A DNA stretch of 11,163 bases from Enterovirga sp. GTDB lineage: Bacteria; Pseudomonadota; Alphaproteobacteria; Rhizobiales; Beijerinckiaceae. This document shows, in pieces, positions 1,508 through 8,748 of this stretch (position 1 is the first letter of the stretch; every line of letters begins with the position of its first letter). The stretch spans positions 1 to 11,163 of the forward strand of contig JAQGJZ010000233.1 in the NCBI GenBank assembly GCA_028290385.1, read 5' to 3'. The notes under the pieces are model-generated. The model saw only the letters and a program-made list of their open reading frames with translations. It was not told the DNA's origin and searched no databases. Position numbers and translations under genes: made by a program.

Positions 1508-1867
1508 TCAGGCGGCCGCCAGCATCTTCTCGACCTCGTTGACGAGCTCGCGCAGGTGGAAGGGCTTCGACAGGATCTTGGCGTCGCGCGGAGCCTTGTT
1601 GTCGGGGTTGAGCGCAACCGCCGCAAAGCCCGTGATGAACATCACCTTGATGTCCGGATCGAGCTCGGTCGCGCGCCGCGCCAGTTCGATCCCGTCCATC
1701 TCGGGCATCACGATGTCCGTGAGCAGAAGCTCGAAGGGCTCCTCGCGCAGACGGTCGTAAGCAGACTGACCGTTGTCGTGAGGTGAGACCTTGAACCCCG
1801 CATTCTCCAGCGCCTTGGCCAGGAAGCGGCGCATGTCGTGATCGTCTTCCGCAAGCAGGATCTTCAT
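1508..1867 (-). CDS. cpdR: CpdR-family single-domain response regulator
   Basis: A 119-residue stand-alone receiver domain with no output domain. In Caulobacter, CpdR is phosphorylated through the CckA-ChpT relay; unphosphorylated CpdR primes the ClpXP protease and directs it to the pole, which drives timed degradation of cell-cycle proteins. Visible here are the acidic pair D8/D9, phosphoacceptor D51 (LLLTDIVMPEMDG), T79 and K101 (LSKPF). The stretch EPFELLLTDIVMPEMDGIEL and the phrase FITGFAAVALNP are near-identical to CpdR proteins as I remember them. The chain ends in three alanines, a possible protease-recognition tail. ATG 1867 is chosen because the receiver fold starts there; upstream in-frame codons do not resemble the family. 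No strong Shine-Dalgarno is visible. It is divergent from the next gene across 140 bp. Confidence 0.93.
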   Translation of the reverse strand: MKILLAEDDHDMRRFLAKALENAGFKVSPHDNGQSAYDRLREEPFELLLTDIVMPEMDGIELARRATELDPDIKVMFITGFAAVALNPDNKAPRDAKILSKPFHLRELVNEVEKMLAAA

Positions 1868-2007: not shown

Positions 2008-2976
2008 GTGGACTCCGGGACACAGCCCCGCCACATTGGCCCCAGAGGTCAAGCTTCGCGCGCTCCGACGTCAGGCCCTTCCTTGAACGAAACCGATCCG
2101 TCCGTCGAGTTCGATCCGCCCTTCATCTGCCGCGAGCCCGAGCGGCAGCGATTTGCGTTCGTCTTCAACGCGCCGCATGCCGGGAGCCTCTACCCCGCGT
2201 CGTTGCTCCGCGCTTCCCGCCTCGACGCCACGGCGCTCCGGCGATCGGAGGATGCTTTCGTCGACGAGCTCTTCGCGGGCGTCGTGCAACTGGGCGCGCC
2301 CCTGATGAGCGCCCGCTTTCCGCGGGCCTATCTCGACGTCAACCGGGAGCCCTACGAGCTCGACCCGCGCATGTTCGAAGGGCGCCTGCCGCCCTACGCG
2401 AACACGCGCTCGATGCGCGTCGCGGGCGGGCTCGGAACCGTGCCCCGCATCGTGGCGGACGGGCACGAGATCTATCAGGCCCGCCTGCCGGTTGCGGAAG
2501 CGCTGCGCCGCATCGAGCTCCTCTACAAGCCGTACCACCGGGCGCTTCGGACGCGGCTCGCCCGCACGGTCGAACTGTTCGGCCACGTGGTGCTGATCGA
2601 TTGCCATTCGATGCCGTCCTCCAGCCTCGGCCGGGAAGACCTTCCGCGGGCCGATATCGTGCTCGGCGACCGGTATGGAACGAGTTGCACGGGGCTGCTC
2701 ACCGACCTTGTCGATGTCGGCCTTCGCGACCGCGGCTATGTCGTGGTGCGCAACAAGCCCTATGCCGGCGGCTTCATCACGGAGCATTACGGGGCGCCGG
2801 CGCTTCGCCGGCACTCCCTCCAGATCGAGGTGAACCGGGCGCTCTACATGGACGAGCGCAGCCTGCGGCCGAACAAGGGTTTCGGCCGGCTCGCCCAGGA
2901 CCTGGGCGACTGCTTCGCCGATGTCATGCTCGAGGTGGGAGGCGGGCTCGAGCCGCGCCGCATCGCGGCGGAATAG
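2008..2976 (+). CDS. N-formylglutamate amidohydrolase family protein
   Basis: Zinc-dependent hydrolase of the N-formylglutamate amidohydrolase family, whose members release formate or ammonia from N-acylated glutamate-type substrates. The true substrate here is unproven. It has 322 residues. NAPHAG (54-59) supplies the conserved metal-binding His; SEDAFVDELF (about 80-89), YLDVNREPYELDP (about 108-120), IDCHSMPS, a GDRYG segment and FITEHYG then HSLQIEVNRALYMDE follow in family order. GTG 2008 is preceded by AAGGGG at 1999-2004, close to the start. TTG 2083 is an alternative that would remove 25 poorly conserved residues. No other histidine-utilisation genes are present, so hutG is not assigned. 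It lies upstream of hisN on the same strand, but a minus-strand RNA gene fills the 208-bp gap. Confidence 0.88.
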   Translation: MDSGTQPRHIGPRGQASRAPTSGPSLNETDPSVEFDPPFICREPERQRFAFVFNAPHAGSLYPASLLRASRLDATALRRSEDAFVDELFAGVVQLGAPLMSARFPRAYLDVNREPYELDPRMFEGRLPPYANTRSMRVAGGLGTVPRIVADGHEIYQARLPVAEALRRIELLYKPYHRALRTRLARTVELFGHVVLIDCHSMPSSSLGREDLPRADIVLGDRYGTSCTGLLTDLVDVGLRDRGYVVVRNKPYAGGFITEHYGAPALRRHSLQIEVNRALYMDERSLRPNKGFGRLAQDLGDCFADVMLEVGGGLEPRRIAAE

Positions 2977-2981
2977 CCCAG

Positions 2982-3064
2982 AAAAGAAAGAGGCCGCCCT
3001 TTCGGGCGGCCCAAGTCTAGGGAGGAAACGCCCAAGAAGGGCAACAGCGCCGAAGCGCTGCGAT
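2982..3064 (-). ncRNA. mmgR: suhB/MmgR (alpha-r8) family small RNA
   Basis: Read on the minus strand, about 83 nt. Hairpin 1 is CAGCGC-UUCG-GCGCUG (3060-3045); hairpin 2 is GCCC-UUCUU-GGGC (3042-3030). An unpaired stretch with GUUUCCUCCCUAGACUU (about 3030-3014) follows, then a terminator hairpin GGCCGCCC-GAAA-GGGCGGCC (3011-2992) and the U-rich tail UCUUUCUUUUCU (2991-2980). The pyrimidine-rich UCCUCCCUAGAC segment and the order of parts match my memory of the Rfam suhB motif, found in alphaproteobacteria next to a suhB-like phosphatase gene. Its Sinorhizobium meliloti member, MmgR, is an Hfq-binding RNA that limits polyhydroxybutyrate accumulation. Its neighbour here is also an inositol-monophosphatase-family gene, read in the opposite direction. 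Ends are inferred from promoter and terminator; the target is unknown. Confidence 0.82.
2992..3011 (-). terminator. Terminator of the MmgR-like RNA, possibly shared
   Basis: A perfect 8-bp GC-rich stem with a GAAA loop on the minus strand is followed there by a pyrimidine tail rich in U. On the plus strand the same hairpin comes 15 bases after the amidohydrolase stop but has no T run, so termination of that gene is less certain. Confidence 0.78.
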
Positions 3065-3068
3065 GCAC

Positions 3069-3096
3069 AATCTAGGGTGCGGCGCACAAGAATCAA
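3069..3096 (-). promoter_or_regulatory. Housekeeping-type promoter of the MmgR-like RNA
   Basis: On the minus strand, TTGATT (3096-3091) and TAGATT (3074-3069) are separated by 16 bases. Counting seven bases on places the RNA start near 3062-3064, just before the first hairpin. This agrees with the expected length of the RNA family. Confidence 0.55.
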
Positions 3097-3184
3097 CCCC
3101 CTCGGGCCGATTTTCCGCGCGGCGCGTCTCGCCGTATGGTGATGAGGCCCTGCTCCCGACCCCACGCTGAACCGGACCCCCGTC

Positions 3185-3967
3185 ATGAGACCCGTCGATT
3201 TCGCCAGCTTCGTCAACGAGCTGGCCACCACGTCCGGCCAGGCGATCCTGCCGTTCTTCCGCACCTCGCTGTCCGCCGAGGACAAGTCGCGCGGCGGCGT
3301 CTTCGACCCGGTGACCGAGGCCGATCGCGCGGGCGAGACCACCATGCGCCGCATGATCACGGCCATGTTCCCGTCGCACGGGATCGTCGGCGAGGAGTTC
3401 GGAGCGGAGCGCGCCGACGCCGAGTTCGTCTGGATTCTCGACCCGATCGACGGCACCCGGGCCTTCATGGCGGGGCTGCCGCTCTGGGGAACCCTGATCG
3501 GCCTCACCCGCAACGGCGCCCCGGCTTACGGCCTCATGCATCAGCCCTTTATCGGCGAGCGCTTCTTCGGCGATGGCGGGAGCGCCGGCTATGTCGGCCC
3601 GCATGGCGAGCGCAAGCTGACCACCCGGCGTTGCCACGCGCTGGCCGACGCCACCATGTCGACCACCAGCCCGCGCCTGTTCGAGGGCGCCGCGATGGCG
3701 GGCTACCAGCGCGTCGAGAGCGCCGTGAAGCTCACGCGCTACGGGTACGATTGCTATGCCTATTGCATGCTGGCGGCCGGGCATCTCGACCTCGTGGTCG
3801 AGTCGGGCCTGAAGCCCTATGACATCGCCCCGCTGATCCCGATCATCGAGGGGGCGGGCGGCATTGTCACGACCTGGGACGGCGGCTCGGCCGCGCAGGG
3901 CGGCTCAATCGTCGCCTGCGGGGACAAGCGGCTGCACGACAGCGTCCTCGAGCTGCTCGGCCGCTGA
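3185..3967 (+). CDS. hisN: Histidinol-phosphatase, inositol-monophosphatase family (HisN type)
   Basis: Magnesium-dependent cytoplasmic phosphatase of 260 residues, predicted to convert L-histidinol phosphate to L-histidinol, the penultimate part of histidine synthesis. IMPase-fold signatures appear in order: DPVTEADR (41-48), GEEFG with metal-binding E70, DPIDGTRAF with D86 and D89, and YDIAPLIPIIEGAGG with D213. The wording FMAGLPLWGTLIGL and YDIAPLIPIIEGAGG fits the proteobacterial HisN branch better than SuhB or CysQ, where the last motif is usually WDxAA. Old genome annotations often call such genes suhB. ATG 3185 gives the family's usual N-terminus; no good Shine-Dalgarno precedes it. 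Its last 63 bp overlap the convergent hydrolase gene. No other his genes are visible. Confidence 0.87.
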   Translation: MRPVDFASFVNELATTSGQAILPFFRTSLSAEDKSRGGVFDPVTEADRAGETTMRRMITAMFPSHGIVGEEFGAERADAEFVWILDPIDGTRAFMAGLPLWGTLIGLTRNGAPAYGLMHQPFIGERFFGDGGSAGYVGPHGERKLTTRRCHALADATMSTTSPRLFEGAAMAGYQRVESAVKLTRYGYDCYAYCMLAAGHLDLVVESGLKPYDIAPLIPIIEGAGGIVTTWDGGSAAQGGSIVACGDKRLHDSVLELLGR

Positions 3968-5000: not shown

Positions 5001-5085
5001 TGTGCCGGCCCGGTTGGGCGGCACACCGGTCCGGCCCTCGGGCGGACCTCCAGACTGCATGTCGCTTCAAGGAGGATATGCCATG
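5001..5085 (+). promoter_or_regulatory. ROSE-like RNA thermometer in the hsp20 leader
   Basis: Three stacked hairpins precede the hsp20 start. Hairpin I pairs TGTGCC (5001-5006) with GGCACA (5020-5025) and GCCC with GGGC inside it, with one bulged G. Hairpin II pairs GGTCC (5028-5032) with GGACC (5044-5048) around GCC/GGC, also with a bulged G. Hairpin III pairs GCAT (5057-5060) with ATGC (5078-5081) and folds TCGCT (5062-5066 region) onto the Shine-Dalgarno AAGGAGG (5069-5075). ROSE elements of rhizobial small heat-shock genes have the conserved U(U/C)GCU opposite the ribosome site; here it reads UCGCU, including the G that lies opposite the SD. Warming would melt hairpin III and expose the site. 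The fold was made by eye, not computed. Confidence 0.78.
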
Positions 5086-5541
5086 CGACAGTTTGATCTT
5101 GCACCCCTGTACCGCAACACGGTCGGCTTCGACCGTCTTTTCTCGATGCTCGACCAGATCGGCGGCAGCGAGTCGGCCCCGTCTTATCCGCCCTACAACA
5201 TCGAGCGCACCGGCGAGACAGCTTACCGCATCTCCGTCGCGGTCGCGGGCTTCTCCCAGGAAGACCTCTCGATCGAGGTGAAGGAGAACGGGCTGACGAT
5301 CCGCGGCGACAAGAAGACGTCGGTCGAGCAGAAGGCCGAGGTCCTCTACCAGGGCATTGCGGCGCGCACGTTCGAGCGGCGCTTTCAGCTTGCCGATTAC
5401 GTGCAGGTGACCGGCGCGTCTCTTGAGAACGGCCTGCTCCATGTCGACCTCGTCCGCGAGATCCCGGAGGCCAAGAAGCCCCGTCAGATCGCGATCAACG
5501 GGCGCGGCCCGCAGACCATCGAGGCCAAGAAGGCCGCGTAA
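5083..5541 (+). CDS. Small heat-shock protein, Hsp20/alpha-crystallin family (IbpA/HspA-like)
   Basis: ATP-independent cytoplasmic holdase of 152 residues that binds unfolding proteins during heat stress. The alpha-crystallin domain covers about 36-130: YNIERTGETAYRISVAVAGFS, the EVKENGLTIRG strand and GIAARTFERRFQL (91-103), then the A-x-x-x-NGLL segment (112-119). The C-terminal I-x-I anchor used for oligomer assembly is IAI at 136-138. ATG 5083 has a strong Shine-Dalgarno, AAGGAGG at 5069-5075, seven bases upstream; the open frame to 5002 is leader RNA, not coding. Expression is probably controlled twice, by a sigma32-like promoter and by the ROSE-like leader. Rhizobia often carry several such genes; which paralogue class this is cannot be told here. 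Confidence 0.93.
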   Translation: MRQFDLAPLYRNTVGFDRLFSMLDQIGGSESAPSYPPYNIERTGETAYRISVAVAGFSQEDLSIEVKENGLTIRGDKKTSVEQKAEVLYQGIAARTFERRFQLADYVQVTGASLENGLLHVDLVREIPEAKKPRQIAINGRGPQTIEAKKAA

Positions 5542-7860: not shown

Positions 7861-8748
7861 ATGCAACCCAGACCGACGCGACGCGCCGTGCTTCGGGCCA
7901 CCCTCATCGGCACGACGTGGACCGGCCTCGGCGCGCCCGCACGGGCGGCGCCCGCCCGGGACCCGGCCGCCGAGATCGCGGCCCTAGAGGCGAAGCTCGG
8001 CGGGCGCATCGGGGTCGCGGCGCTCGACGCCGGCACGAGGCAGCGCATCGTCTACCGGGGCGACGAGCGCTTTCCGATGACCAGCACCTTCAAGATGCTG
8101 GCCGCGGCCTTCGTGCTCGCCCGGGTCGATCGCGGCGACGAGGATCTGGAGCGCCGGGTCAGGTTCAGCTCGGACGATCTCGTGACCTACTCCCCGGTCA
8201 CGAAGGACCGGACGCACGGGAACGGCATGTCGATGGCCGAACTCTGCGAGGCCGCGGTCGTGGTGAGCGACAACACGGCCGGCAATCTGCTGCTGTCGAG
8301 CTTCGGCGGCCCGCCGGGCCTGACCGGCTTCGTCAAATCGCTCGGCGACGACACGACCCGGCTGGACCGGATCGAACCGGCCCTGAACGAGGCCGCGCCC
8401 GGCGATCCGCGCGATACGACGAGCCCGGCCGCCATGCTGGAGACCATGCGGAGAATTCTCGTGGACGATGCGCTCGCGCCGCCCTCGCGTGAGCGGCTTC
8501 TGCGCTGGATGCGGGCGAGCAAGACCGGCGAGGCGCGCCTTCGGGCCGGATTTCCGAAGGACTGGGTTGCCGGCGACAAGACCGGCTCTGGCGAAAACGG
8601 CACGGCCAACGACGTCGCGGTCGCGGTGCGCCCGAGCGCCGTGCCCGTCCTGCTCGCCTGCTACATGACCGGGTCGAAGGCGAACTCCGCCCGCCTCAAT
8701 GAGACCCACGCCGCCATCGGACGGCTGGTCGCAGCCGCGTTCAGGTGA
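7861..8748 (+). CDS. Class A (serine) beta-lactamase, Tat-exported
   Basis: Periplasmic hydrolase of beta-lactam rings, 295 residues. The N-terminus TRRAVLR (6-12) is a twin-arginine motif, followed by a weakly hydrophobic stretch and ARA-A cleavage near residue 29, so export folded through Tat is likely. All class A motifs are intact: S75-T-F-K78 (Ambler S70, K73), S136-D-N138 (130-132), E172-PALN176 (E166, N170) and K240-T-G-S-G (234-238). The omega-loop pair R170 and D185 (R164, D179) is present. There is no Cys at Ambler 69 or 238, which argues against the disulfide carbapenemases. Ser at 237 also occurs in CTX-M enzymes; spectrum cannot be inferred. ATG 7861 has GGGAG seven bases upstream. 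No ampR-type regulator is adjacent. This is probably an intrinsic chromosomal gene. Confidence 0.93.
   Translation: MQPRPTRRAVLRATLIGTTWTGLGAPARAAPARDPAAEIAALEAKLGGRIGVAALDAGTRQRIVYRGDERFPMTSTFKMLAAAFVLARVDRGDEDLERRVRFSSDDLVTYSPVTKDRTHGNGMSMAELCEAAVVVSDNTAGNLLLSSFGGPPGLTGFVKSLGDDTTRLDRIEPALNEAAPGDPRDTTSPAAMLETMRRILVDDALAPPSRERLLRWMRASKTGEARLRAGFPKDWVAGDKTGSGENGTANDVAVAVRPSAVPVLLACYMTGSKANSARLNETHAAIGRLVAAAFR

Follow-up and report, generated by a model that had tools for sequence, protein, structure and literature searches.

Tandem PhaR-type palindromes in the promoter of an aR8 (MmgR/SisA) family small RNA from Enterovirga, and solute-binding protein mRNAs as its candidate targets

Introduction

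What occupies the gap between an N-formylglutamate amidohydrolase (FGase) family gene and hisN in Enterovirga sp., and what might control it? The window analysed, that is, the whole stretch of 11,163 nucleotides of contig JAQGJZ010000233.1 (assembly GCA_028290385.1), had been described in a preliminary way from its letters, and a small RNA of the MmgR/suhB type was placed in this gap, on the minus strand. Its closest known counterpart is MmgR of Sinorhizobium meliloti, which according to two papers has no known direct target (PMC7143759, PMC12559287). In S. meliloti, PhaR binds PHB, and it also binds the promoter of mmgR and represses this gene (PMC12542648; PMC8401924), and MmgR has been linked to PHB and phasins (PMC12542648). 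Papers given here by PMC number are cited for those portions of their text that were available.

Identity and fold of the RNA

The Rfam covariance model RF00519 (suhB/MmgR, aR8) matches positions 3049-2976 of the minus strand over its full length, model positions 1-77, scoring 73.7 bits (E 4.1e-14) where the gathering score is 41. This bears out the assignment made in the preliminary description and confirms the RNA as a member of an already known kind, the aR8 (MmgR/SisA) family. SorY (RF02651) was rejected as the family, at 24.8 bits against a cut-off of 111, as was BjrC1505, which scored far under its cut-off, and no other such Rfam family, of the AbcR/aR15 type, was among the matches listed (E up to 1, and up to 0.05 in a second search).

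The predicted fold of 3064-2982 has an energy of -42.5 kcal/mol (z -5.04), equalled by none of 200 shuffled sequences. In the order previously described, it begins with a pair of small hairpins, which are followed by the UUUCCUCCCU segment, left open, and by a terminator hairpin (Table 1). A terminator scan of 2700-3400 returned two overlapping sites where 0.4 were expected, and one of them corresponds to 3012-2991. The layout is that of aR8 RNAs, with the unpaired 10-mer, the core of these RNAs (PMC12559287), lying between a weak hairpin and a Rho-independent terminator. A stem of at least seven pairs at the position of the 5' hairpin was found in 70 of 116 Hyphomicrobiales copies, and in 12 after shuffling. 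The RNA probably acts in trans and would be expected to depend on Hfq.

Table 1. Features of the RNA locus and its neighbours, with positions in the window
Feature	Positions	Strand	Basis
cpdR response regulator gene	1508..1867	-	NF046022, 197.4 bits over 180
FGase (N-formylglutamate amidohydrolase family) gene	2008..2976	+	PF05013, 249.4 bits; convergent with the RNA
aR8/MmgR-type small RNA, transcript of about 83 nt	2982..3064	-	RF00519 and fold; ends predicted
Intrinsic terminator, interrupted U tail	2982..3012	-	stem 3012-2991 (terminator scan) and fold
Conserved open 10-mer UUUCCUCCCU, pairing seed	3019..3028	-	exact in window
Second hairpin, GCCC-UUCUU-GGGC	3030..3042	-	RF00519 match and fold
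5' hairpin, 7 bp, UUCG loop	3044..3061	-	predicted fold; not part of the base pairing in the Rfam model
O2, PhaR/AniA-type palindrome TGCATCGCA, over the predicted start	3059..3067	-	motif match
-10 element TAGATT	3069..3074	-	exact sequence
O1, PhaR/AniA-type palindrome TGCGCCGCA, in the -35/-10 spacer	3078..3086	-	motif match
-35 element TTGATT	3091..3096	-	exact sequence
hisN, histidinol-phosphatase (inositol monophosphatase family)	3185..3967	+	TIGR02067, 319.6 over 275.15, and PF00459; divergent from the RNA

S. meliloti carries one copy of the RNA (PMC12559287), whereas the Enterovirga genome carries two full copies and one weak one. The second full copy, on contig C3, scores 72.7 bits, and the third, at C417:279-350 (L003), falls below the cut-off of 41 with 34.2 bits; this diverged copy retains the UUUCCUCCCU core intact and is otherwise a weak match. 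RF00519 exceeded its cut-off in 235 of 297 genomes of a Hyphomicrobiales sample and in 164 of 385 of a sample of the class. Two genomes (G218 and G641) gave 10 matches each at E up to 0.001, and the family has therefore expanded in some lineages. In Bosea sp. 117 (L072, 6138-6939) three RNA copies stand in tandem downstream of the FGase gene, with two, one and no PhaR-type sites in their respective promoters.

Two PhaR-type palindromes in the promoter

The promoter proposed in the preliminary description, TTGATT and TAGATT separated by a 16-bp spacer, lies exactly where it had been placed (3096-3091 and 3074-3069), but a scan of the region for sigma-70 consensus promoters found none, so that the promoter call rests on conservation; a TTG begins 10 nt before O1 in 55 of the 58 Hyphomicrobiales tandem sites with spacings of 19-21.

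Within this promoter are two palindromes, O1 and O2, which the preliminary description did not mention. Their starts are 19 bp apart and each matches YGCRNYGCR, the core of the S. meliloti PhaR (AniA) site (PMC12542648), and 19 of the 21 positions of the full published consensus. The tandem motif at spacing 19 is present at four places in the 3.14-Mb genome, this promoter included, against two for a backward control. A phaR gene is present in the genome (E 2.3e-42) and, with a palindrome overlapping the promoter, the locus would qualify on its sequence as a PhaR/AniA-type promoter. PhaR may bind here, with O1 and O2 cooperating, as their spacing would predict. The promoter of the C3 paralogue has a single PhaR-type site, at the position of O2.

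In S. meliloti the mmgR promoter is listed with one PhaR site; PhaR shifts this promoter in EMSA, and the shift is lost once the palindrome is mutated (PMC12542648). The Enterovirga RNA shares with MmgR the Rfam family, the 10-mer, the linkage of the family to FGase and the promoter palindrome, and differs in having two sites rather than the one published. Two PhaR palindromes per promoter, also bound in EMSA, occur at S. meliloti phaP1 and phaP2 (PMC12542648), where they flank the -35 element of phasin genes, whereas O1 and O2 flank the -10 element of a small RNA gene. The SisA-D RNAs of Caulobacter crescentus have the same core, and sisA also adjoins an FGase gene, but the available text reports no shared promoter motif before sisA-D, and these RNAs are controlled by the sponge RNA CrfA (PMC12559287).

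Conservation of the sites and their association with phaR

A site was counted when it started 105 to 30 bases before the RNA core, and a tandem pair when two starts were 15-25 apart. Of 87 sampled RNA copies from phaR-bearing Hyphomicrobiales genomes, 81 had a site and 60 had a tandem pair, compared with 66 and 0 of 1041 control windows further upstream; among shuffled Hyphomicrobiales promoters, 15% contained a site and 0.2% a pair. The corresponding counts for other orders were 88 and 26 of 125, against 106 and 2 of 1476 upstream windows. Spacings peaked at 19-21 start to start (78 of 115 site pairs). At named FGase loci a site preceded 69 of 71 copies and a pair 60 of 71, while all 140-base windows of these loci, promoters included, gave 494 and 28 of 5668. 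Five genomes of one genus (G069, G136, G209, G229 and G265), assigned to the Rhizobiaceae by resemblance only, carry O1 alone, as published for S. meliloti. Most loci were the best-scoring part of longer lists, and these rates therefore hold for strong family members; one set of loci was chosen by family. One of the 232 loci of the promoter set lacked a core match (L225), and the loci below the cut-off (L003, L128-L131 and L133-L136) were left out; in the set containing the O1-only genomes, three of 30 had no core match.

Counted by genome in the class sample, a site was present in 181 of 218 genomes with phaR and in 2 of 11 at least 90% complete genomes in which phaR was not detected (p 1.1e-5), and a tandem pair in 89 of 218 and 1 of 11, respectively (p 0.054), p values which treat genomes as independent, uncorrected for kinship, and for which phaR-less Hyphomicrobiales genomes were partly sought on purpose. 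The two exceptions are G644 and G499. Less complete genomes with no detected phaR had a site in five of six cases, which brings the total without phaR to 7 of 17; these assemblies may just not include the gene. Within a single genus, G158 has phaR and O1, whereas in G182 no phaR was found and no site.

The association runs one way: sites are rare where phaR is missing, yet some lineages with phaR are siteless. Examples of genomes that carry phaR and the RNA, and whose retrieved promoters contain no site, are G335, G462, G558 and G634, and also G362, G574 and G651. Named genomes of this kind, with phaR and the RNA and no PhaR-type promoter site, belong to four families of the class sample (f91, f118, f133 and f164), in which PhaR control has been lost or was never gained. 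Such lineages agree with the absence of a shared promoter motif before sisA-D in the text available (PMC12559287).

Neighbouring genes

The FGase of the window shares 84% identity with its Enterovirga aerilata counterpart, which points to an Enterovirga-like source within the Hyphomicrobiales, and misses the HutG equivalog cut-off (105.4 against 278.75). Linkage of aR8 RNAs to FGase genes has been published (PMC12559287), while the 2005 discovery paper, in its available text, reported seeing no specific neighbouring genes (PMC1273637). The gene order cpdR, FGase, RNA and hisN-type gene, which the preliminary description gave for S. meliloti, is borne out: in 67 of 80 named FGase loci the RNA core was matched 50 to 1082 bases beyond the FGase gene, on the other strand, a CpdR-like gene lay upstream in 79, and a HisN-like gene was found downstream, in the retrieved DNA, in 57. 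Since the 80 loci were selected by their FGase, these rates apply to FGase loci only.

The preliminary description also took the synteny to suggest a functional or evolutionary link between the RNA and the genes beside it. A functional tie to FGase or hisN might run through a shared promoter region or an antisense overlap. The 67 loci, together with a predicted RNA end that lies 6 nt away from the stop of FGase and with the divergent arrangement of RNA and hisN, speak for such a tie, but 13 of the 80 FGase loci have no core match, 23 have no HisN-like gene in the retrieved DNA, and further RNA copies are located elsewhere in the genome. Moreover, the seed segment pairs with the FGase start at -16.3 kcal/mol and with the HisN start at -8.6 kcal/mol, both within the range of other starts. 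We consider this tie very improbable. The suggested functional link goes unsupported because of the loci lacking the core and the copies elsewhere, and because the strongest conserved link found for the RNA is with PhaR and not with its flanking genes.

Candidate targets of the seed

A 9-mer complementary to the seed, AGGGAGGAA, occurs 11 times in the Enterovirga genome, and its reversed control 10 times; the occurrences of the complement were placed relative to genes. Three of the 11 are the RNA genes themselves. Five of the remaining eight lie at the Shine-Dalgarno sequences of solute-binding protein genes (two TctC, two Peripla_BP_6 and one NMT1); of the other three, one stands ahead of a short frame that is itself followed by an unclassified gene, and two do not coincide with a clear start.

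Two weaker tests, on further sequences, agree with this. In 800 kb of Enterovirga rhinocerotis (G712), a complement of at least 8 bases to the open segment precedes 2 of 12 TctC/Peripla_BP_6/NMT1 genes and 4 of 324 others (p 0.016), after a filter on G+C at the third codon position that retained 336 of 611 called genes; one of the four non-family genes resembles a PotD-type binding protein by eye. On the 1.2-Mb pSymB of S. meliloti, complements of at least 8 bases to the 10-mer are found at 23 of 839 called genes, retained by the third-position G+C filter from 1018. Pfam scans identified solute-binding proteins in 6 of 22 of these (one gene of 1072 aa was omitted) and in 1 of 28 control genes that combine a strong Shine-Dalgarno sequence with a shorter complement, scanned from 30 drawn out of 66 (one-sided p 0.023). 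Not counted among the six were two solute-binding genes, L430:21894, with its site inside the gene, and L429:44934, with no Pfam match, as well as L427:5896, which encodes a LacI-type regulator; on the control side another regulator of this type, L418:20755, was likewise uncounted. An earlier pSymB count by iterated phmmer (7/23 against 13/816) was discarded, its seeds having been drawn from the very genes under test, and was replaced by these Pfam scans with Shine-Dalgarno-matched controls.

There is, then, an excess of solute-binding protein genes among the seed complements, in small numbers. The suggestion in the preliminary description that the pyrimidine-rich segment could pair with Shine-Dalgarno sequences agrees with these tests and with Caulobacter, where SisA represses mRNAs through the 10-mer (PMC12559287). 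If the target class is correct, the RNA would resemble AbcR1/AbcR2 (aR15), which direct CU-rich anti-Shine-Dalgarno segments at ABC transporter mRNAs (PMC7143759); these belong to another family and in S. meliloti are under the control of the LysR-type regulator LsrB (PMC8844928).

A possible link between carbon storage and import

PhaR is a repressor titrated by PHB granules. On the reading that we favour, and hold to be somewhat more likely than not, a tandem-operator promoter shut by PhaR governs an aR8 RNA that represses solute-binding protein mRNAs when PHB stores are full. PhaR on O1, in the spacer, and on O2, at the start, about two helical turns apart, would shut the promoter; as PHB builds up, PhaR would be drawn to the granules and the promoter would open; the UUUCCUCCCU seed would then cover the Shine-Dalgarno sequences of mRNAs, including some that encode periplasmic solute-binding proteins, and nutrient uptake would fall as storage fills. 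The RNA, the two palindromes, their conservation, their rarity where phaR is missing and, in small numbers, the excess of solute-binding genes among the seed complements are direct results of the computations, whereas PhaR binding at this promoter, cooperation of O1 and O2, a part for Hfq and the repression of importers are what we infer. What looks new, prior mentions having been sought in open-licence papers, is the tandem PhaR-type control of the RNA, which is widespread yet rare in genomes lacking phaR, together with a target class of solute-binding proteins.

Doubts about this reading concern both its targets and its operators. The RNA could be an ordinary MmgR orthologue tuning PHB by repression of phasins, the solute-binding matches being the purine-rich ribosome sites of well expressed genes. 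Deletion of the mmgR core in S. meliloti raises PhaP1, PhaP2 and PHB, directly or indirectly, a point left unsettled in the available text (PMC8401924); the Enterovirga genome has three phasin-family genes; and the seed complement is no commoner genome-wide than its reverse. Two of the three phasin starts were tried, however, and they pair no better than unrelated genes (-10.3 and -17.7 kcal/mol, against -8.6 to -21.0 for eight genes of the window), so phasin mRNAs were set aside as preferred targets, and strong Shine-Dalgarno sequences as such do not reproduce the excess on pSymB (1/28 against 6/22). We regard the phasin explanation as unlikely, if still the most serious competitor. phaC was not found in the Enterovirga genome, whose source assembly is 78% complete; it is present in a genome of the same genus and in 55 of 60 of a family sample, and because the same-genus genome has it we read its absence as assembly incompleteness.

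The palindromes might instead serve another factor, such as NtrC, which also activates S. meliloti mmgR, and a review ties both AniA and NtrC control to a -35/-10 dyad (PMC8401924). Most of the near-complete genomes that lack phaR have no such sites, however, and the core matches a PhaR consensus that has been tested by EMSA. O2, which overlaps the start and the first stem, could alternatively be kept only as code for the 5' stem, but O1 lies outside the predicted transcript, and in two near-complete phaR-less genomes, G182 and G285, a 5' stem can be made out by eye where O2 is absent. Operators for another factor, or a stem-coding O2, seem to us distinctly improbable.

Our preferred reading of PhaR-type control and importer targets has a wider extension, which we advance tentatively and think possible, though with less than even confidence: the aR8 RNA may be the missing indirect arm by which importers are kept on under PhaR, a storage-gated brake on uptake in many Alphaproteobacteria whose operators disappeared where phaR was lost. 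In rich medium 30% of the PhaR-activated genes of S. meliloti concern transport, and many transport proteins fall without PhaR, while the PhaR motif is found at only seven PhaR-activated genes (PMC12542648). This points to an indirect path from PhaR to transporters, and we infer that it may pass through the aR8 RNA; how PhaR raises transporter levels is left unexplained in the available text of that paper (PMC12542648). With a widespread PhaR-type operator and a target class fitting the phaR proteome, the question of the MmgR targets and that of the transporters become testable in one double mutant. The proposal, if true, would couple the storage of carbon to its import in many PHB producers, among them soil, plant-associated and industrial ones.

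Other features of the window

At 5002-5090 of the plus strand there is a match to a ROSE RNA thermometer that remains below threshold (29.8 bits, cut-off 45, E 0.3) and directly precedes an IbpA/Hsp20-type gene at about 5083-5541, which scores 163.8 and so stays below the IbpA equivalog cut-off of 212. In the leader of this gene the ribosome site falls within a predicted hairpin, the z value of the whole leader being -1.95. The same ribosome site (5060-5090, plus strand) gave the best pairing with the seed segment among the ten starts tried, -21.0 kcal/mol, and IbpA and Hsp20 proteins also decrease in S. meliloti without PhaR (PMC12542648). The window also carries a class A beta-lactamase gene at 7861-8748 on the plus strand (NF033103, 321.1 bits over 200).
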